NCBI GenBank assembly: GCA_910589415.1
Contig: OU342634.1
Span: 24,487,144 to 24,551,143, forward strand
Source of the DNA: Malachius bipustulatus
Taxonomy: Eukaryota; Arthropoda; Insecta; Coleoptera; Melyridae
Direction: 5' to 3'
Length of the DNA: 64,000 bases
Below, in pieces: positions 6,549 through 64,000 of the stretch. The translations under genes were made by a program, and so were the position numbers. The notes below the pieces were generated by a model. It made no database searches, had not been told where the DNA came from, and saw only the letters and a list, made by a program, of their open reading frames with translations. Positions within the stretch are counted from its first letter, which is position 1. Each line of letters opens with the position of its first letter.

Positions 6549-8003
6549 CTACAGGGAAGATTTAATGTTATGATAATTTTTGAGCGCTTCATGAATTTTT
6601 TGACCAAAACTCTTATCAACCTGTGAAAAAACTTTCACAGTTCTTTCTTGAATAAAATCGACTGTATTCTTCAGGCTGTCAACTATATTAGCTACCAGTC
6701 GATCTCTCGCAGGCTCATCTAATACTCTCTGATAGTATTCTCTGGGTTGTGAAAAATTGTCCAAGTCATCTTTGTCATACTTCATTACATCGCCGGAAAT
6801 GTGGAAAGGTGGTGATAATTTGTCAGCTCTTGAATCATTTTCTGGACCGTTAAAACTATTCGGGTGATAATTTGGTGCACTCCCTTGGTTGTGAATAGCT
6901 TGAGGTCCGTCACGTTGATAATTCTGAACTTTAAACGGGCAATTAACTGGCAGTTGTAAATAATTTGCTCCCAAACGGTGTCTTTGAGTATCACCATAAG
7001 CGAACATTCTTCCCAGTAATATTTTGTCGTGTGTAGGTTGAATACCTGGAACCATATGGGCGGGGCAAAATGCTATTTGTTCCACTTCTGCAAAATAATT
7101 TTCTGGGTTTCGATTGAGAACTAATTTCCCAACTGGAAGAAGCGGATAAAGTTTCTGTGGCCAAGCTTTAGTGATGTCAAGTGGATCGAAACTGCTTCTG
7201 CTGATTTGTTCTTCTTTCATTATTTGAACATAAAACGTCCAAGATGGATAATTTTGATTCGCTATAGCATTATATAGGTCTTTAATAGCATAATCCTGTT
7301 CGTATTGTGTTAGATCTGATGCTATTTTTGGATCAAGATTCTTTGAACCTTGATCCGTCTTGAAATGAAACTTACAATAAGATACATGACCTTGATTATT
7401 CACCAACTTATATGTATGAGTTCCATAACCATTCATATATCTATACCCATCGGGAATTCCTCTGTCTCCAAACAGCATCATGATGTGATGCATAGTTTCT
7501 GGCCGCAAAGACACAAAATCCCAGAACATATTTGGATCCCTCAAGTGGGTCTGCGGATTCCTTTTCAAGGTGTGAATAAAACTCGGGAACAAAATAGGAT
7601 CTCTGAAGAAGAAGACGGGTGCATTATTCCCAACTAAATCCCATATTCCATCTTCGGTGTAGAACTTGATCGCGAATCCTCTAGGATCTCTTACAGTGTC
7701 AGGTGATCCATTTTCGCCGGACACGGTGGAGAATCTTACCGCGATAGGAGTTTTCTTTCCGATATATTCGAACACTTTAACAGCAGTGTAATCTGTTATG
7801 TCGTGGGTTACCTCAAAATAACCAAACGCTCCGGCTCCTTTGGCGTGAACTACTCTCTCGGGGATCCTTTCTCTGTTGAAATGTGCGATCTCCTGGATGA
7901 AAGACACATCTTCTAATAGGATTGGTCCTCGTGGTCCTACCGTTAGGGTTGCTTGTTTTATGCCAATTGGAGTACCATGAGTTGTTGTTACCGATAAAGT
8001 TTT
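6549..8003 (-). CDS. Cat: Catalase, main exon (residues 20-503)
   Basis: Haem catalase, which converts hydrogen peroxide to water and oxygen, normally in peroxisomes. Joined to exon 1 (12941-12997) in phase 0 it gives 503 residues, a usual insect catalase length. The acceptor is TTTATTTCAG ending at 8004; the frame remains open upstream to 8090, but that part is intron. Visible key residues: distal His72 in [13 protein letters not shown], Asn145 in GNNAP, and proximal haem ligand Tyr355 in [15 protein letters not shown]. The residues matching the NADPH contacts of mammalian catalase are largely kept (His191, Arg200, Lys234, Trp300). The protein ends KSSL, comparable to the divergent KANL-type peroxisomal signal of animal catalases. 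No frameshift or missing catalytic residue is seen, so the gene looks functional. Unusually, one large exon encodes 96% of the protein. Confidence 0.97.
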
Positions 8004-8780
8004 CTGAAATAAAAATTGCGTTTTATTACAGATGGTGTGTTCCATATGAAAGTGACATATCAAAGGTATATTTTTTCTAATGGAATGCATTTTTAGACTG
8101 CCTGAGAAGAAAAATAAGACTGTTTTTTTTTACAGTTTGAATTAAGCAGTTTGGGACTTACACAAGTGAAAATTGCAATTTTCAAAGTTGAAGGCAGTGT
8201 GGGTACAACGAAAATAGCTCACATGACCCTATTTTAACTTTTTTTGCAGATATAGTAGTATGTAGATGAAATATTTATACAGAGTGATGAAAAATCTTGC
8301 GGTCTCTCAAAGCGTCGCTATAAGTAATAAAAAAAAAAAAAAATGGTACTAATATTTCTGAACAATGGAATAGAAAATAGAAAGTTAAAATGGAGACATA
8401 TAAGCTGTTTTCTTAAACTTGAACCGCTTTCGATGTACCGGGTGTCCCAACACCAGTGTCCACCCCCTAAATAAAGCTTAATTTTAAAGATAAAAAATTG
8501 AAACTTTGAGGATTTGTGTACTTGATATAGGACCACGGAATGGCATAATTAGTTTCATAAAAAAATTAATATCTTTTTAATAATCGCCTTTTTCATGACT
8601 CCATAATACGACACTGTCCAGTGCAGGTTCAGTGTGCCGGCTAGCCCAGCAAGAGCCGTCCTTCTATTTATTTCGGCCTTATTTACATTGTCATAAAACT
8701 TTATTGCACCTACCGTTTTCAGATTATATTGATCACCGCATTGCACATCGTAAATCAGTTTTCTACCTGTCATTGCTATA

Positions 8781-15939: not shown

Positions 15940-17522
15940 AGGATCGAATAGATAATCCAATTTCTATAATTATTTAATATTTAAGAATTTTATAAATTTA
16001 ATAAAACTCTTTCAAGATGATGTAATCCAATTTATGGAACGTCCGAATTTAGATTTCATTACATAAGCAGACGGGAAATATAATATAAGCGGGCATTGAA
16101 GCAATAATTCTGGTAAGGTCAGCACTAGGGAAACCAAATACGCCTGTAGTCCGACGGCGGCACAGGAAGGTAAAGTCATTAATAAAGACCCAACTTGAAA
16201 TTAAAACTCAAGAGAACAGATTAGAATTATTTTCCCAGATTAAAAAACTGCTCAAAAATCATGTAGAGCCTTTTAGTAGGATGCTAATTATCAAAACCAG
16301 ATGGTCAGCGGCGTGGGTACAGAGAGACATTGTTGAATTAATAGCCGCCAGACTAAACTATTGTATAAAAGATTAAGTTTCGGACGTGATCAAAACTGCG
16401 TTTTCGAAAAACCGCTGAGCGAGGTCAATTGCAGTTGTGGGAACAAAAACCATTCAACTGAAAAGGCGGAGTTAGTGAGAGGGCGGTTCCAAATTATTTA
16501 ATGAGAGAAAAAGAGGAAAATATTCGGACATCGGCACTAGAACTCTGATTGGGGAAAATAAGTAGCCTGGGGGGTAAAACGTCTAAGCCAGGGAGTTAAG
16601 AAGTAGGCGGTCAAACCGACTAACTCGAAAAAGTGGGAATTAAAATTTTGAGAGAGGAAAAAAGTAGTCTCCTTTCAGCTGTCGTCGTAACAGTTTGGGG
16701 AACGCGAAAAGTCTCTGGTACTTGACCAGATTTAATCTAATTGGCGTCGCGACGGTTATCCGCGAAATTAGTCTTGTTTTTAAAACAAAGTGTTTGTTAG
16801 CTAAGTAAAAATTAGTTACGCGAAGTAGAACCGCGAATTTTCTTAAAGTTGATTAAGAAAATTATTCTTGAATAAATTTTAGTTAAAATATTCGCAATTA
16901 TTTGTGAGTGATTAATCAGTTATCTCGAATAGGAATAATAATTATTACACGGTCGTAATACGGGTAATGTCTCAGTGAAGTGCCCAATAATTGGATTCTT
17001 TGGATACATTCGGATTTTCCTTAACCAGGAGAAAGGTCAGAGATTTTTGTATACTAATACTTATGTACTTTGGTATATTTTGCAACCTTAAGGGTTACTG
17101 CTGAATAAAGATCAGATAAGTTAATAGAGGTTTGCGGATGAATAACCCACAGGTAGTTAATTAAAACACACATTGATTGTGTCGTGTCAAAAAGGCATTA
17201 AGATTTTATTTTTTTATGTTTGTTATATACCAAGGTAAATAATTGTAATTATTTACTACTTGTCATGTATGGTTACTGTAATAAAGGATAAAGTATCAAC
17301 TATTAATCAAAGATTGATTTTACCAATAAAGGGGTAAATAAACGTAATTACTAGGTATTATTATTATTAAAGGTAATAGTTTATATTATATCTCTCACAA
17401 TTTCGATGCATCCGTGAGGGAAAATAAAGTGAAATCTATTGTAGGGAACTTAGGTGTATATTATAGCTCTCAAATTATTTTAGTGTTTTGTACGTTTATA
17501 TTATTATTTATTTATTATAATG
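15940..17522. other. Unassigned region with one 95-codon open stretch
   Basis: From 16089 to 16376 on the plus strand a frame without an early Met stays open for 95 codons. It is rich in Arg/Lys and polar residues (GKPNTPVVRRRHRKVKS, then a helix-like QENRLELFSQIKKLL). It could be a gag-like retroelement remnant, but I do not recognise the family. The rest, to 17522, holds no frame or RNA I can support. Confidence 0.35.
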
Positions 17523-18325
17523 CAATTGAGGCAATCGAAGAGTTAAATATAGAACTTAATAAACTGGTTCAACTTGCCACTAAACATAATTTGAAAATCA
17601 ATGAAACGAAATCGTGTGTTGTTTATTTCGGCAGAAAAAACGATCGATCAAGAATAGAAAACCTAAGAATCGCTATTCAAATGAACAACACGACACTCGA
17701 GATCAAAAGAGCCGTGAGGAATCTGGGTTTAATTATTGATGACAATTTGAAATACCAGGATCATGTAAACTACCTAATTAGGAACTCATATGCAAGATTA
17801 AAACTATTGTACTGTACAAAAAATTATCTTCCAACAAAACTTAAAGCACAGATTTGTAATGCGATGATTTTGTCCAGATTCGATTACGTTGACACTGTGT
17901 ACGGACCGGCTTTAGACCAATCTTTAAAGATGAAAATTGAAAAGGTGCAAAGATCGTGCGTTCGTTTTATTTATAATATTCGAAAATTCGACTCGGTATC
18001 CTCAAAAATCACCGAACTAGGTTGGCTTACAATGGAACAGCGACGTTCGAAACATCTTTCGATTCTGACACACAAGATAATCAAAAATAACACCCCAGAC
18101 TATCTAAATGAAAAACTGCTGCAGCGTGGTAACGTGCACCTGGTGAATGTTCGACATAAAGAAATTCTCACCATGCCAGTCTTTAGATCTGCTTTCTACA
18201 AGAAATCATTCACTTATAATGCTTGCCACACGTATAATAAAATTCCATTTGAGCTCAAACAACTGACAGTGCAGAAGTTCAAACGTGGCATACACAACTA
18301 TATTATAGATCAAAATGTCCAATAG
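17523..18325 (+). pseudogene. 5'-truncated non-LTR reverse transcriptase, C-terminal part
   Basis: The open frame corresponds to the region just after the YADD motif of a Jockey/CR1-type ORF2. It contains LATKHNLKINETKSCVVYFG, then NLGLIIDDNLKYQDHVNYL, then LILSRFDYVDTVYGPA-like and LGWLTMEQRRSKHLSIL. It ends at a stop at 18325. The catalytic fingers and palm are absent, as expected from 5' truncation during target-primed reverse transcription. The retained part is intact, so the insertion is fairly young. The frame opens at 17414, but residues before about 17523 look like flanking sequence. Confidence 0.88.
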
Positions 18326-51885: not shown

Positions 51886-52381
51886 ATGAAAGCTTCAGAT
51901 TTTGGTCATCTTAACAAGGGAGAAACACATACCGAAGAAGAAATTTATTTAATTCGTTTTCTGATGAGTTATGCTACCAAATTTAGAAAAAGTTCTGCTT
52001 GTGTTAAGAATCTTTTATTTTTCTGAAGGAATTAAGTCAAACTTTCCGTTAATGTCGGAAATTACCAAATTGCTTAATGAAAATAATTGAGATTGATTCA
52101 TAACTATCACAAATTAACTTTAAGCTTTTTCTTTTTTTTCAAAATAGTTACGTACTTACAAGTCTGCAATTTTTTTTATTATTTTTATTTTGTTTATTTA
52201 TTTGCGAAGTTTTTTGAATGATGATTCGTGTGATTGTATATTTAAGTAACTTATGTAAAGTATAAATAGTAAATGTAATTGTTAATGTTATTATTTATTT
52301 CTCACCTCTGAATAATTATTTATATTTTACATAACGAAATTATTTATGTTCTTTTAAATAATAAGTGGTATTTATAATAAA
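51886..52381 (+). terminator. 3' untranslated region and poly(A) signal of the secreted-protein gene
   Basis: About 0.5 kb of AT-rich sequence after the stop, with AATAAA at 52376-52381 as the best poly(A) signal. The left arm of the large palindrome starts right there, so transcripts that read through would enter the hairpin. Confidence 0.5.
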
Positions 52382-52488
52382 TATAATATATTTGATGAAT
52401 TTTATTGGGATTTAGGTTCTAATTTAAATTTGCCACTAAAGATTCTTTACAGAACAAATTAGAAAAACTTTCGTACAGCATGCGAGGA

Positions 52489-52558
52489 GAAGACTGAAGA
52501 CATGGACGGTACCGTTTCGTCCTTATTATGGACTCATCAGCATATCATATCAGTCAGC
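52489..52558 (-). ncRNA. Hammerhead ribozyme, type I (left arm, minus strand)
   Basis: This is the mirror copy of the motif at 53316-53385. Read on the minus strand, CTGATGA is at 52540-52534 and GAAA at 52518-52515. The predicted cleavage site is after the C at 52505 (GTC). Stem II, stem III and stem I match the right-arm copy base for base. It points away from the palindrome centre, toward the secreted-protein gene, antisense to it. Confidence 0.88.
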
Positions 52559-53315
52559 TCTAAACCACACATGCTATACGAAATTTGGAAGTTCTATCTA
52601 TTCTAACTGGTGTTTTCGTTTTGTAGTGACTTATAATTTTCAAATGAGTGAGTAGGCAACCAGAGAAACGTGCGTGTCTTTATATAGTATTATCCTCGCT
52701 ATAACAGTAGAGTTTTCATGGATTTATGAAATTTACACTACTAATGCAGAGGTTTCTATCAATTCAAGAACTACACATTGATTCTCATAAGTATATACCT
52801 ACCCACATTCATTTTCAAGCTAATTTTATTGAATTTTTACTGATGTGTATTTATAAATTAGATGTTACTACACGAATTAAGATGTTATGGCACATTTTTT
52901 CACCCTGGCCTTTTTAGATTTATAATTATTTTTATTTGATAAAAATAATTATAAATCTAAAAAGGCCAGGGTGAAAAAATGTGCCATAACATCTTAATTC
53001 GTGTAGTAACATCTAATTTATAAATACACATCAGTAAAAATTCAATAAAATTAGCTTGAAAATGAATGTGGGTAGGTATATACTTATGAGAATCAATGTG
53101 TAGTTCTTGAATTGATAGAAACCTCTGCATTAGTAGTGTAAATTTCATAAATCCATGAAAACTCTACTGTTATAGCGAGGATAATACTATATAAAGACAC
53201 GCACGTTTCTCTGGTTGCCTACTCACTCATTTGAAAATTATAAGTCACTACAAAACGAAAACACCAGTTAGAATAGATAGAACTTCCAAATTTCGTATAG
53301 CATGTGTGGTTTAGA

Positions 53316-53385
53316 GCTGACTGATATGATATGCTGATGAGTCCATAATAAGGACGAAACGGTACCGTCCATGTCTTCAGTCTTC
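53316..53385 (+). ncRNA. Hammerhead ribozyme, type I (right arm, plus strand)
   Basis: All universal elements are present in order. CTGATGA is at 53334-53340. Stem II is GTCC/GGAC (53341-53344 with 53352-53355) with a seven-base loop ATAATAA. GAAA is at 53356-53359. Stem III is ACGG/CCGT (53359-53362 with 53365-53368) with a two-base TA loop. C17 is at 53369, where cleavage is expected. Stem I is GATATG/CATGTC (53328-53333 with 53370-53375, one G-U pair), then an internal loop, then GACTGA/TCAGTC (53319-53324 with 53377-53382). The internal loop in stem I could contact loop II, as in fast natural hammerheads. The minimal stem III is the form known from Penelope-like elements and retrozymes. 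Confidence 0.92.
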
Positions 53386-53493
53386 TCCTCGCATGCTGTA
53401 CGAAAGTTTTTCTAATTTGTTCTGTAAAGAATCTTTAGTGGCAAATTTAAATTAGAACCTAAATCCCAATAAAATTCATCAAATATATTATAT

Positions 53494-54337
53494 AATCAAA
53501 TAAGTGGTTCAATAAAAATAATTATAAATATAATAAATATTTTATTGATTTTTCTTATCATCTTCGTTTTGTTGTATACTAATAACTGTACACCTAAGAA
53601 ATTTGATAGCATCCTTATTGGTTGAGTAGTTTAGTTTCTGGGCAGTTATTGACCGAGAAAATATCAATAATCTTGTTCAGGAATTCGGGGTGCGTTAAAT
53701 TAGATCGAAAGTGAAGCCCGAATGCATTAAAACTGCACTTTTTACATATTCCTGGGTTTCTTTTGCCGGGCTTAATAAATCAGAGTTTCAAAAAATCAGT
53801 TCAAAAGTATGGGAAAATCAGTTGATTTTAAATCAATTAATCAATGAATTCATTGATTACGTAATTTAGTTTAAGTCGAATACTCCTATAACTCGAAAAC
53901 TAGCTCTAACATCCTTATACGAAGTCTTGGTAATCAAATATTGGAAATATACCTGTTTTTTTGTCTTAAATTTGGAAGACTATTATTGAGAGCTCATAAT
54001 ATTTTTTATCATCCATGTTGGCGATTCCAAGGATATTTTAATATGTTAATTACCGTGTTATCAGTTTTCTATCTTCCTCATAATTTTTAACTGCTTAACA
54101 TTGCCTTGTTTTCAGGAATCCGCTGCTTTCAAGCAATTATAATTTCTTATACTTCTCTGTTAATTAAAATTTTTTCAGTAAAGTTAGCGTGCAAGAGAAT
54201 AAAAATCCTTGGTTTGTAATAAGGCATGGTCCCAATTATTGCATTGTCGATTTAGATTACCTTTCTTGTATATTAATATTCGTGATAATTGGCGGAACTG
54301 TATAAGTACCTACATAGCTTCCCTTTTAATAGCAAAT
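53494..54337. other. Intergenic, nothing recognised
   Basis: AT-rich. TATAAATATAATAAATATT just after the palindrome resembles its left flank, but no gene or further repeat is supported. Confidence 0.35.
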
Positions 54338-54667: not shown

Positions 54668-57263
54668 ATACATCGATCTCGTCTTTTCCAAATATGAACA
54701 CATTAGTATTTGTTTAAAGAGCGGGTGATTAACAATCCGAAGAGATTAAGAACATTATTAAGAACAATTGAATAGGTATATTACCTATGAGTAGCATAAA
54801 GAATCGATAAACAATCGATAAGAGAAAACCAATATAAGTAACTAGAATTTTGATAATAATTGAGAATGAGTGACATAAGAAAGTAGGAACGTAATACTCG
54901 TAGAAACGGAAATAACCGAATAGTCATAGACTACTAGGGCCAGTAGGGACAGGTGATTATTTCCGAGGAAAAAAAGGGCACTGGCAATGCTTGGAACTGG
55001 TTTGGAAATTGGGCCTGTTACTACAGGACCTAGCCATGGTGGTTCGTCGCAGACCAACAAACAGGCTTCGGGATGGCATTGAGGACAACGCCAGCACGGC
55101 TTGCCGGTGAAGTCGCTGCATGGTAGCTATGGGTTTTGAAAAGTTCGCCACCAATGCCATTTAAACCAGCGACTGAGCGTTAAGTGTCAAGGCCACGCAG
55201 AATTTATTTATTTATTTTTTCTTCCTGATACTAATTGCGTTCTAGCAGCAGTTTCCCTGATGTCTGAATGAGGTCCATCCACTCTGTGAACCCCAGTTGC
55301 AGTTGGTGTGAGTTGACTTAATCGAAGTGTAATTCCTCCAAGCGAAGTGTCATTCCTCCGGTGTCAGACGTCCAACCTGGTGCTAGGCTCGGATGTGAGT
55401 TATAATACGAGCGAGGGAATTCATATCATGGGGGGAATTCTGCGGCGTGAAGGGGGCATTATGAAATGCGTTGTAGTGAGATGCTATTATGTGGACGGCG
55501 TTCTCTTGGCAGGATGAATGCCGTAGATAGTCCCAGAGTACCCCGAGCACTGTTCCAAGGTGTTTTTGCCGAGAGACACTAACATAACCGGGATGGCTGT
55601 TTGTGGGCACCTCTTTCCGTAGAAAGGGAAGAGGCGACTAAGAGGGGAAATTTCCCACAGAGTGGATGACTTTCCAGGGAAGGAGACAAGAGCAGATTTT
55701 TCCGGAAAATGGATAACCACTTACTGATAGGGGTACAATGGTTGGCAAGGCCAAGTAGGGACAATTCCCCTGTAAGAATTTTCAAGGATAAGCCTATGCA
55801 CTTGCAGTCAGACTACTGCAAATAAATCGACTTCTGGTTTCTTATGTGGTTGAAAGCGGACGCGTAGGGGATATTCAGTTCCACCTTCAAACATCTGATC
55901 GATTCCCGGTTTGCGTTCATGCGTTCATGCTGTTGGTGGAGCTGATGTAAGAGGCTGTCAACATAAGTTGATTCCGTAGTACTGAAAGTCTCTGATAAGG
56001 TGAGATTTTTTTTTTCACTCCACTCATTTTGTTGATGTATGAAATGGCTAGTAGCAAGCCGTAAAGAATGTTAGAATTGGTTAGAGAGCATTTCAGTGAA
56101 TAAACGACTGCCTGTGAGTTATGTGAGTTGTTTGGTAGCCCTAGAAAACTATACAGTTTTGTAGGAGACTAGCTCTTTACTAGGATAATAAGAAACCCCA
56201 GAAAGTCTACCGCAACCGGGGCATCCTGTATACATTGGAATTCCTTTGATTAATAATTAGCAATAAAATCATAAGTGATTGACGCAACCGATGTCGAGAG
56301 AACATAACTGACCTAGAGCCGGTTTTCCAAGTGAAATATAATGCCCGGTGCAGAGACCGAAGTGTACGTATGCTGCGTTTTGAAACTCGAAATTCGAGTA
56401 TTTCCTGGATGACGCGAGACACGATTGTAATAAGCGTCCATGAGATCTATTAGTGTATTTCCGTTAGGAAACAATCAAAAGGAGGCAAATGTTTTATAGG
56501 TTTCTAGATTACAAAGAGGCGATGCTCTTAGAAACTGGTTCTTAATTAGGCTTAATATGGAAAAAATTCCCTTCGAGTTTGTTGATTTATTTTTTTATTG
56601 TTTACGTGAGCTAAACTGAGTAGTGAATGGGATTCGTTTTTTTTTAATGGGGTAGAAGTTGATTTTGTAACCCTTGATCCAAGTAAGTACCTCAACAGGA
56701 TAGCTTGCCTTGCCAATCATATCTGAGCCAGTCAAGAATCATCTCTGATCCAGTCAAGTATAACAGTATTATTCTTGAATTATGCTCCAGTCAAGTATAA
56801 CAGTATTATTCTTGTATTATTCTGTCGCCACCCCCTCCCCCCCTCCCTCTGATAAGCCCTGGCAGGGGGTGTTGAGAGTTTTAAGTCGACGTCGGTGGAG
56901 GGGAATGGTTGGCGGTGGATTGACACCATGTTGATGGTGTCGGCGAAAATTCTGCCGATGTCCATGGGGAGGAGCAAACGGCGAGAATTTTAACGGAAGG
57001 ACCATGCCGAAGAAAGTGGTCCGCCAGGTGAGCCGTCGCATTGATGGCAACACTTATGCCCGGTTGTACGAACCTCGATTTTAAAACGCCCTGTATTATC
57101 AGAATATTGGTCTGATAGGGCTGGAACCAAACTCTACTCCCTTGTAGAAGAGTTAAACAAAAAGTAAAATATCCTTGAATATATTCACCAGAGTTCCAAC
57201 ATTTGAAAGTTAAAATCGGCAAAATGCAAATGTAAAATTAAATTTAAAATGCAGATAATTATG

Positions 57264-59633
57264 CATGCCAGGAAGGAATCTAGGTTGCGTGCGTGGAAAG
57301 CACCGAGAGATCTAGCCAAAACTTGGCTCAGGTGGTTGAAGTGCAAAAAATGGTTAAAACTTGTATCACTTTGCACAAAGACGGCTGGCTAAAACTAAGG
57401 CCTAAAAGTTATACCACTTGCACAGAGACGGCTGGCAAAAACTCATGTCATGCCGGGAAGGAATAGGTTACGTGCAAGGGAATAGCACCAAGACATCTGG
57501 CCAAAACGTGGCCCAGGAAAAAATGTTAAAGTGCAAAAAAGGGTTAAAACGTGTACCATTTTGCACAAAGACGACTGGCCAAAACTAAGGGCTAAAACTT
57601 ATACCACTTGCACAGAGACGGCTGGCAAAAACTATGTCATGCCGGGAAGGAATAAGTTACGTGCAAGGCATAGCACCAAGACATCTGGCCAAAACTTGGC
57701 CCAGGAAGAAATGGTTAAAGCGCAAAAAATAGTTAAAACTTGTGCCACTTTGCACAAAGATGGCTGGCTAAAACTAAAGCCTATTTGTATTTGTATTGTA
57801 TTTTTGAGGGTGATTAAGTTACTGCAACCTAAAAGATCTATTGTATCCCCTCTACTTTGCTTCGCCTGGTGTGGAATTCCTTTAGTGAAGCACCCTCTCC
57901 AAGTCCGTTTCCTTGAGAAACTTCAGGATTTTGAGAGGATCAAGGTCGGGTAAGTTCCCTGCCTCTAGCTGGTGAACTAAAGCCTAAAACTTAGACCACT
58001 TGCATAGAGATGGCTGGCAAAAACTTATGTCATGCCGGGTTACGTGCAAGGGAATAGCACCAAGACATCTGGCCAAAACTTGGCCCAGGAAGAAATGTTA
58101 AAGTGCAAAAAAGGGTTAAAACGTGTACCATTTTGCACAAAGACGACTGGCCAAAACTAAGGGCTAAAACTTATACCACTTGCACAGCGGCTGGCAAAAA
58201 CTATGTCCTGCCGGGAAGGAATAAGTTATGTGCAAGGAATAGCACCGAGACAGCTGGCCAAAACTTGGCTCAGAAAGAAATTGTTGAAGTGCAAAAAATG
58301 GTTATAACTTGTACCACTTGCGCAGAGACGGCTGGTTAAAACTTATGCCACGCCAGAAAGGAATAGTTAACAGACAAGGAATTGCCCCGAGACAGCTGGC
58401 TAAAACTTATGCCAGGAAAAAGGGCAAAACTTGCACCAAAGCGCCTGGCGGAAACTTATGCCAAGACGGAAAAAGGGTAAAACTTGCACGACAGGCTGAG
58501 TGCAAGTACGTACCTGAAAGATCAGGAACCTATGTAGAACGGTCGTCAGCCGATAGGTGGTATTTTTCCAGGTGGCACAGTTTCCGTTTGAGGCGTTCTA
58601 GTCTGGTCCGCTCCATGTTCGGTGGAAAGACTTATATCACTTGCAGGCTGGCTAAAACTTATGCCAGGAAAGAAGAATCCACGGGACATCTGGCTGAAAC
58701 TTATGCCAGGAAAAAAGGTGGAAGTGCAGCAAAATGGGTAAAACTTACACCACTATGCACCGATGCCTGGCGGAAACTTTACTACTAAGCACCGGTGCCT
58801 GGCTGAAACTTCTGCCAGGATCAGTTCAAGACATCTGGCTGAAACTTACGCCAGTGTGTGGAAGTGCAACAAAAAAGGTTAAAACTTACCAGCTTACCAC
58901 TATGCACCAAGGCGGCTGGCTAAAACTGATGCCAGGAACGAAGAATCCACGTGGCATCTGGCTGAAACTTATGCCAGGAAGGAAACGGTAGAGGTGCAAC
59001 AACAGGGTTAAAACTTATACCACTATGCACCGCTGTCTGGCTGATACTTCCTCCAGGATGAGTTCGGGACATCTGGCTAAAACTTATGCCAGGGTGTGGA
59101 AGTGCACCAAAATGGTTAAAACTTGTACCACTATGCACCGATGCGTCTGGCTGAAACTTATGCCAGGAAGGAAGAATTCACGTCACAGCTGGCTGAAACT
59201 TATGCCAGGAAGAAAGAGTGGAGGTGCAACAAAAAGGGTTAAAACTTGTACCACTATGCACCGAGGCTGAAACTTATGCCAGGAAGGAAGAATCCACGTC
59301 ACAGCTGGCTGAAACTTATGCCAGGAAGAAAGAGTGGAGGTGCAACAAAAATAGTTAAAACTTGTACCACTATGCACCGAGGCTGAAACTTATGCCAGGA
59401 AGGAAGAATCCACGTCACAGCTGGCTGAAACTTATGCCAGGAAGAAAGAGTGGAGGTGCAACAAAAATGGTTAAAACTTGTACCACTATGCACCGAGGCT
59501 GAAACTTATGCCAGGAAGGAAGAATCCACGTCACAGCTGGCTGAAACTTATGCCAGGAAGAAAGAGTGGAGGTGCAACAAAAATGGTTAAAACTTGTACC
59601 ACTATGCACCGAGGCTGAAACTTATGCCAGGAG
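57264..59633. repeat. Complex satellite with changing repeat period
   Basis: The basic words are GGCTGGCTAAAACTTATGCC, AGTGCAAAAAATGGTTAAAA and CTTGTACCACTATGCACCG. From 57264 to about 58330 they repeat about every 190 bases (AGTGCAAAAAANGGTTAAAAC near 57340, 57530, 57718, 58098, 58288), interrupted by an unrelated block at about 57785-57975. From 58330 to 59147 units are irregular. From 59148 the period is exactly 116 bases. Long in-frame stretches here are by-products of repetition rather than genes. Confidence 0.9.
59148..59633. repeat. 116-bp tandem subarray, four units plus a partial
   Basis: AGGCTGAAACTTATGCCAGG starts at 59264, 59380, 59496 and 59612, exactly 116 bases apart; the first unit (from 59148) is a variant. 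Units differ by only one to three bases, so expansion was recent. Each unit has two copies of CTGAAACTTATGCCAGGAAG. Confidence 0.95.
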
Positions 59634-63450: not shown

Positions 63451-64000
63451 AAGGGTGGGCCATATAAAAGTTGCATTTTTAAAATTCAATAAAAACGAAA
63501 CTAGTGAATATTTTTTCAAATTTCCGGTTTTATTAGAAAGATTGGACATTGAAATTTATGAATGAGACACAATTTCATTTAAATGGCTGCCACGGCTGGC
63601 CCGACAGTACCCCATCCGATCAACCCAATTTTTCAATACATTTTCGATTGTTCGGGCTTCAATCTCGTGAATGGCAACTTCGATTTCATGTTTCAAAGCC
63701 TCAATCGTCTCTGGATGATTTGCGTAACATTTGTCCTTAACGGCTCCCCACAAAAAATAGTCCAACGGACTCAAATCGCAGCTCCAAGGTGGCCAATTGA
63801 CATCAGAATTTCGGCTGATTATTCGGTAAAAATGCCCATCTTCGGCCAATTGATCTTCAGCCCATTGCGCGAACCGAAAACGCATCAGATGGTCATGAGG
63901 CTTCAGTTGTTGGACTAATTGAACCTTGTAAGCGTGCATACCGGGGTCCTTATGCAAAATTCGCCGCAGAGAAGTTCGAGAAATGTTCATTTCTTATGAA
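63451..64000 (-). mobile_element. Mariner/Tc1-class element, right end cut by the window
   Basis: A terminus GGGTGGGCCATATAAAAGTT at about 63453 is preceded by TA (63449-63450). The GGGTGGGCCA end is familiar from insect IS630/Tc1/mariner-class elements. The transposase remnant 63556-63990 runs toward this end. The other terminus is outside the window. Confidence 0.75.
63556..63990 (-). pseudogene. Mariner/Tc1-class transposase, internally deleted
   Basis: The minus-strand frame covers the HTH/linker part (NISRTSLRRILHKDPGMHAY, then KVQLVQQLKP and RFAQWAEDQLAEDGHFYR). It then jumps at about residue 58-60 directly to NSDVNWPPWSCDLSPLDYFL with the third catalytic Asp, and ends VDRMGYCRASRGSHLNEIV. 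About 100 or more residues with the first two catalytic Asp are missing. A TAA also lies in frame at 63996-63994, two codons before the Met. It cannot be active. Confidence 0.88.

Follow-up and report, generated by a model that had tools for sequence, protein, structure and literature searches.

The locus and its surroundings

The window, which is the whole 64-kb stretch of DNA that was analysed, harbours a catalase open reading frame (6549–8129, minus strand; Pfam PF00199). Among the 120 matches listed, the best named relatives of the catalase are mostly beetle proteins of ∼65–71% identity (Callosobruchus, Cryptolaemus, Tribolium and others), which suggests that the host is an insect, probably a beetle; the top match carries the label of a contaminated sturgeon sequence, and next comes a catalase of 73% identity. 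A reading frame of 325 amino acids (17348–18325) resembles, in our reading, the C-terminal portion of a reverse transcriptase from a non-LTR retrotransposon and has no match in Pfam or PDB. A fragment of a Tc-like transposase is located at 63556–63993 on the minus strand (HTH_Tnp_Tc3_2, 25.9 bits against a cut-off of 31.5). Satellite-like tandem arrays occupy 57260–57783 and 58831–59632, with periods of 190 bp and of 116/232/348 bp, and their units are partly alike.

The feature on which this study focuses is a perfect inverted repeat of 555/3/555 nt, established by a repeat search and by exact string identity. The left arm (52381–52935, minus strand) is the exact reverse complement of the right arm (52939–53493, plus strand; 555 nt, 100% identity) and the centre consists of three nucleotides, TTG (52936–52938). 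The right arm can be regarded as a putative pseudo-LTR-like unit. No other copy of the arm is present in the window, where the remaining self-BLAST matches do not exceed 40 nt. The insertion is located ∼470 bases beyond the putative stop codon of an upstream gene, according to our own reading of its exons; this gene has a DM4/DM12 match that falls below threshold (20.2 bits against a cut-off of 22).

Microribonucleic acid families were considered as an explanation of the palindrome centre (52871–53003) and rejected: 12 of the 17 Rfam rows are miRNA models, all of them below gathering. Several of the miRNA models match the centre at low E-values despite these scores, which probably reflects the perfect hairpin. 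A second perfect inverted repeat is found ∼0.8 kb downstream (54336–54408/54597–54669; 73 nt, 100% identity, 188 nt apart), accompanied by an exact direct repeat of 29 nt (54395–54423/54681–54709). This smaller structure may represent another fold-back or template-switch event.

A type I hammerhead motif in each arm

The right arm contains a type I hammerhead ribozyme motif on the plus strand (53319–53382), whose core and helices were read directly from the letters and whose pairs were checked by script. As the palindrome is perfect, an identical copy is present on the minus strand of the left arm (52492–52555). The core comprises CTGATGA (53334–53340), GAAA (53356–53359) and C17 at 53369; cleavage is predicted after this last position and, in the mirror copy, after 52505. 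Stem I consists of an outer helix of six pairs (GACTGA 53319–53324/TCAGTC 53377–53382), an internal loop (TAT 53325–53327/T 53376) and an inner helix of six pairs including one G–U (GATATG 53328–53333/CATGTC 53370–53375). Stem II pairs GTCC (53341–53344) with GGAC (53352–53355) around the loop ATAATAA, and both loops that could form stem I–II contacts, TAT/T and ATAATAA, are present. Stem III is supplied by a self-complementary decamer, ACGGTACCGT (53359–53368, plus strand), recognized in the sequence and again in the dimer fold described below. With CUGANGA, GAAA, UH and three helices present and the structure open at stem I, the segment is, as judged from its letters, a well-formed type I hammerhead motif of known kind with a predicted cleavage site.

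The sequence-only reading had described a hammerhead with this core, stems I and II and a GTC site, all in order within 64 bases, and had placed it in a palindrome arm. Direct reading and a pair-by-pair check bear out each of these points, and the complete core does lie inside what appears to be an inserted element. Its stem III is correctly positioned at 53359–53368, but the loop of two bases proposed for it is unlikely. A hairpin loop of two bases is not physically expected, and for this reason the monomeric stem III is better read as ACG/CGU closed by a GUAC loop.

How readily such a motif arises by chance was gauged with random windows of 64 kb, generated by a first-order Markov model from the window's dinucleotide frequencies and scanned on both strands. 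A strict motif (at least four pairs in stem II, three in stem III and six in stem I) was found in 0 of 1000 random windows, and a loose one (at least three, three and four pairs) in six of 1000; a separate, smaller run yielded one loose match in 60 windows. The real window contains the strict motif once per strand, namely as the two palindrome copies. Minimal Penelope-type hammerheads elsewhere in the window were also considered and rejected, as a scan of the window for minimal forms lacking stem III (stem II of at least two pairs, stem I of at least four) returned the same two copies and nothing else.

Covariance models gave a less favourable picture. No Rfam family matched the window at its gathering score. 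RF00163 (Hammerhead_1) aligned with 53328–53375 and with the mirror segment 52499–52546 at 28.1 bits each (E 0.00039 in a search of 2501 bases, the same for the two copies). A covariance score below the Rfam threshold for type I hammerheads had been named beforehand as a refutation, and formally this is the case, the gathering score being 34; this value is a curation cut-off and not a structural definition. The alignment spans the full length of the model (positions 1–45) with the core bases in place. Pairing in stem I is kept with other letters and stem III carries two extra bases, and we infer that these departures lower the score; as read from the alignment, the shortfall does not sit in the hammerhead core. 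A longer hammerhead pattern gave no match in viral and none in genome contig collections, from which the window's own genome may be absent.

Predicted folding of the ribozyme

The structured region extends beyond the hammerhead. Two stretches of 22 nt, 53288–53309 and 53387–53408, pair at 82% and lengthen stem I into a long rod, so that the full domain covers 53288–53408 on the plus strand. The fold of this domain has a predicted energy of −50.2 kcal/mol (z −7.47) and none of 200 shuffled sequences was equally stable; for the 70-nt span 53316–53385 the z score is −2.71, with five of 200 shuffles equally stable. The left arm carries the exact mirror of the extended domain (52466–52586, minus strand), within which lies the second RF00163 match. 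The sequence-only reading was right for the 64-base core, and it overlooked both the long outer stem and the copy on the minus strand.

In the free minimum-energy fold of 53288–53408 the core bases are paired, so this fold is not a hammerhead, and forcing the hammerhead costs 5.4 kcal/mol. In 53220–53493, 53280–53493 and 52939–53493, stem II has a predicted pair probability of 1.0, and stems I and III one of 0.0; within 53316–53385 the values are 0.04–0.11 (stem I), 0.99 (stem II) and 0.0 (stem III). Single copies of the hammerhead are therefore predicted to misfold. As a yardstick, the Rfam hammerhead consensus lies 5.0–8.6 kcal/mol above its own minimum, depending on a base that is not shown in it; this yardstick is one 45-nt consensus and not a tested molecule. 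Since the consensus too stands above its own minimum, a hammerhead cannot be dismissed on nearest-neighbour energies alone.

The prediction is different when two molecules are allowed to interact. For two copies of 64 nt the predicted minimum is a hammerhead dimer whose cores are free and whose stem III is formed between the molecules by 10 bp, at −48.0 kcal/mol (a value without shuffled control) compared with −17.3 kcal/mol for one copy. This agrees with the earlier suggestion that the ribozyme could act as a dimer.

The score below gathering and the monomer folds that disrupt the core are what would be expected of a chance or dead look-alike of a hammerhead in AT-rich DNA. Against this stand the absence of the strict motif from 1000 random windows, the presence of the core bases and the z score of −7.5 for the extended domain, and we regard a look-alike as highly improbable.

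Content of the arms

The arms have a GC content of 31%. A protein encoded in the arm was considered and rejected: stops occur in all six frames and the longest stop-free stretch measures 71 codons. Each arm holds a single hammerhead, and direct repeats inside the arm do not exceed 12 nt. Both arms have the ribozyme strand pointing outward and are accordingly arranged head-to-head.

A motif search detected a TATA-box-like TATATAAA (53188–53195, plus strand; mirror 52679–52686, minus), an initiator-like TCACT (53223–53227, plus; mirror 52647–52651, minus) and, near the outer end of the arm, an AATAAA resembling a polyadenylation signal (53468–53473, plus; mirror 52401–52406, minus). Proceeding outward, the order is TATATAAA, TCACT, ribozyme and AATAAA. 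Further copies of these motifs are scattered in the arm: TATAAA at 52950 and 53019, TCACT at 53245 and AATAAA at 53044. When random arms of the same dinucleotide make-up were inspected, a TATA motif followed by TCACT 15–35 nt further on was present in 172 of 5000, and the pair accompanied by an AATAAA within the final 100 nt in 44 of 5000, under criteria that were chosen after the arm had been seen; the AATAAA motif occurred in 4029 of 5000 random AT-rich arms. Because they also arise in random arms and are not unique in this one, the promoter-like motifs constitute weak evidence.

Junctions of the apparent insertion

The palindrome is flanked by a 10-bp direct repeat, AATAAGTGGT, at 52360–52369 and 53499–53508 on the plus strand. 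This sequence is present at just two places in the window, compared with 0.16 expected, and is the sole 10-mer common to 51900–52380 and 53494–54300. Random pairs of 30-mers shared a 10-mer in 32 of 20000 cases when drawn across the window, close pairs being skipped, and in 28 of 20000 when drawn away from the locus. The repeat reads as a putative target-site duplication round the whole palindrome, and hence points to one insertion event, apparently a recent one.

The exact identity of the arms and the turn of 3 nt are also features of an assembly or library artefact, in which a fold-back, self-chimeric read would have been built into the contig. An artefact of this type would mirror the flank up to the end of the read. 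Here the two arms stop together, and the flanks, which differ from one another, share the 10-bp direct repeat; the repeat thus argues against a fold-back read, and we consider such an origin very unlikely.

Between the duplication and the arms lie short fillers of unequal length: ATTTATAATAA on the left (11 nt, 52370–52380) and AATCA on the right (5 nt, 53494–53498). The two differ, and neither end of the palindrome therefore has inverted termini directly abutting the duplication. This bears on the possibility of a DNA transposon of foldback or MITE-like type, bounded by perfect terminal inverted repeats of great length, that captured a hammerhead. Mutator-like transposons generate duplications of 9–11 bp, and long perfect inverted repeats combined with a 10-bp direct repeat would suit an element of this class. 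The ends defined by a transposase should match, whereas those beside the duplication do not form an inverted pair (fillers of 11 and 5 nt), and no transposase is present in the insertion. A DNA transposon is on this evidence distinctly unlikely.

A further resemblance links the centre of the palindrome to its right flank. A 19-nt stretch at 53511–53529 (plus strand), 2 nt outside the right duplication, is identical to the palindrome centre: AATAAAAATAATTATAAAT is found exactly at 52918–52936 on the minus strand and at 53511–53529, and the start of the right arm, GATAAAAATAATTATAAAT (52938–52956, plus strand), differs from the flank by one mismatch. Allowing up to two mismatches, the match occurs at three places in the window, two of which are the mirror copies, with 0.03 expected. 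The match suggests a target that resembled the start of the unit itself; target preference or microhomology may account for it. It might also be an older duplication of 18–19 bp left by a single insertion whose mirroring came later, a history that would not explain the 10-bp direct repeat.

Comparison with Penelope-like elements

Head-to-head copies are documented in the Penelope elements of a rotifer, which possess inverted head-to-head pLTRs with palindromes at the inverted junction, duplications of 8, 9 and 10 bp and a preference for AT-rich targets (PMC3846280). Their TATA box is associated with a TCACT initiator-like site, a short 3′ tail is optional, and the authors propose self-priming for the inverted copies (PMC3846280). 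The locus described here resembles the Adineta vaga elements Pen2, Pen2a and Pen3a in its head-to-head copies, its palindromic junction, its 10-bp duplication, which falls within the range of 8–10 bp, and its AT-rich target; the optional 3′ extension is an additional point of likeness, and the combination of TATA and TCACT, weak evidence in the palindrome arm, may be another (PMC3846280). There are also differences. In A. vaga the direct pLTR continues into an ORF or captured DNA and then a further pLTR, whereas only arms are present here, and the A. vaga pLTRs measure ∼180–220 bp compared with an arm of 555 bp (PMC3846280). The word hammerhead is absent from the main text of that article.

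The element PAc of Anolis offers a biochemical parallel. With its purified Penelope-like protein, cutting and extension take place on both strands, copying starts inside the RNA, and the in vitro target is the junction of ORF and pLTR (PMC11167929). The 19-nt match between centre and flank would fit an enzyme that targets a sequence like the start of its own pLTR, in line with the PAc target. PAc carries a hammerhead near the pLTR/ORF junction and reverse transcription starts 111–118 nt into the ORF (PMC11167929); by subtraction, this start is ∼85–92 nt past the hammerhead cut, compared with 124 nt from cut to arm end in the palindrome. Both systems have a hammerhead just upstream of the cDNA start, known in one and presumed in the other, and share an AT-rich target, the cutting and extension of both strands being the feature of PAc that the palindrome would reproduce (PMC11167929). 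They differ in that the PAc hammerhead spans the start of the ORF and cut only with protein present, whereas the hammerhead region of the palindrome is non-coding. In vitro, insertion was unaffected in hammerhead mutants, and the cut site was neither the start nor the end of any read (PMC11167929). These results do not imply a role of the ribozyme in insertion, in which it may have no part.

Two observations separate the locus from a typical Penelope-like element. Penelope hammerheads are minimal and devoid of stem III or loop contacts (PMC7761336), whereas the hammerhead of the palindrome has a possible stem III of three pairs with a tetraloop. In addition, none of the 14 complete stop-to-stop reading frames of at least 110 amino acids in the window, a set that leaves aside shorter and end-cut frames, matched a Penelope reverse transcriptase or GIY-YIG domain in Pfam. 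Since no such reading frame was found, the locus is not filed as a Penelope element. On comparison with the published elements it is Penelope-like in its architecture, for which these elements provide the precedent.

Retrozymes and other hammerhead repeats

Fuller hammerheads are connected with retrozymes (PMC7229834, PMC7761336). The palindrome could therefore derive from a metazoan non-LTR retrozyme, a non-autonomous element that forms circular RNA, whose monomer would have been inserted as an inverted pair. Such elements are described in insects among other animals, with Penelope as a strong candidate helper (PMC7229834). The hammerhead is of the type found in these elements, canonical type I with a looped stem I and a short stem III able to close on a palindromic tetraloop; the arm is non-coding, with, like them, a low GC content and no long ORF, and the duplication exceeds 4 bp. 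The arrangement is what distinguishes the two. Retrozymes are head-to-tail tandem repeats, mostly of 170–400 nt (PMC7229834), whereas the locus is a head-to-head pair with one hammerhead per arm, no tandem order and no internal direct repeat beyond 12 nt. The 555-nt arm lies outside this size range, although the discussion of the same article allows circles of 150 to more than 1000 nt, and the arm ends away from the cut site of the ribozyme. A head-to-head order is not described in PMC7229834, whose main text contains the word 'inverted' zero times. An insertion of a retrozyme is, on balance, unlikely.

Another insect system, the pDo500 satellite of Dolichopoda cave crickets, has a unit of ∼500 bp with one hammerhead, for which single and double forms have been proposed (PMC2837043). 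It differs in being a satellite that makes up ∼5% of one genome, compared with one palindromic insertion here. In the open-licence literature, as represented by titles and the starts of abstracts, no palindromic hammerhead insertion appeared among the matches listed.

The sequence-only reading had seen in the locus a remnant of a Penelope-like element or a retrozyme. The head-to-head palindrome and the 10-bp duplication speak for the first of these affinities and the lack of a Penelope protein in the window against it, and stem I with its loop and the fuller stem III belong to the retrozyme kind, not to the minimal Penelope kind (PMC7229834, PMC7761336).

A model for the head-to-head insertion

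The explanation that we favour, with moderate confidence, is a non-autonomous, Penelope-style head-to-head insertion generated by reverse transcription and carrying a new type I hammerhead. In its favour are the complete core, not expected by chance, the long outer stem with its z score of −7.5, the dimer fold, the perfect arms with their 3-nt centre, the flanking direct repeat and the outward direction of the ribozyme strand; the TATA, TCACT and AATAAA motifs lend weak support. The unit RNA would be ∼555 nt long, starting near 52939, with the hammerhead ∼380–445 nt in and the end ∼124 nt past the cut. This RNA would have been copied into an AT-rich site cut with a stagger of 10 nt. The two copies could have arisen in either of two ways: each of the broken ends served as a primer, or the first cDNA bent back on itself to prime the second strand. 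In both cases the product would be two units placed head-to-head, with their inner ends joined at the centre. The exact mirror symmetry about 3 nt fits a single cDNA copied by fold-back, and the unequal fillers fit two independently primed ends. The closest template is the inverted pseudo-LTR pair of a Penelope-like element, and the helper enzyme would have been supplied in trans.

The model has consequences for the activity of the ribozyme. Transcripts that begin within an arm, perhaps from the TATA/TCACT site, would contain the ribozyme and could cleave themselves after 53369. They could do so singly or, with greater ease, as dimers in which two transcripts are joined by their self-complementary stem III. 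Two separate transcripts would be necessary for the dimeric form, because one transcript of the palindrome comprises one sense and one antisense copy. Read-through RNA of the whole palindrome would form a long hairpin in which the ribozyme is locked in a duplex of 555 bp; this RNA should not cut, and cutting would hence be expected only from arm-started RNA, a consequence that the sequence-only reading had also overlooked. The full read-through hairpin could instead feed small-RNA silencing.

Whether the palindrome stands for a kind of element in its own right is a more tentative matter. As a stand-alone palindromic hammerhead element, the insertion would result directly from reverse transcription primed from both sides of one break, or from self-priming of the cDNA, at a target selected for its match to the start of the unit, a match of 19 nt lying 2 nt from the cut. 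We consider this rather unlikely. If it were true, the locus would record, as a natural fossil, the two-strand reaction that one Penelope-like enzyme performs in vitro, and junction sequences would allow tests of how head-to-head Penelope copies originate.

Implications

Type I hammerheads of animals, retrozymes and Penelope-like elements are already known; the locus bears on the linkage between them and on the inversion of Penelope copies. The setting of the ribozyme, a palindrome with a flanking duplication, is more interesting than the ribozyme itself. It places a hammerhead of retrozyme grade in a Penelope-style head-to-head pair whose junctions can be read. The model predicts that RNA started in the arm may cut and that read-through RNA does not. 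Should the genome contain further copies, comparison of their junctions could distinguish self-priming from priming at two ends.
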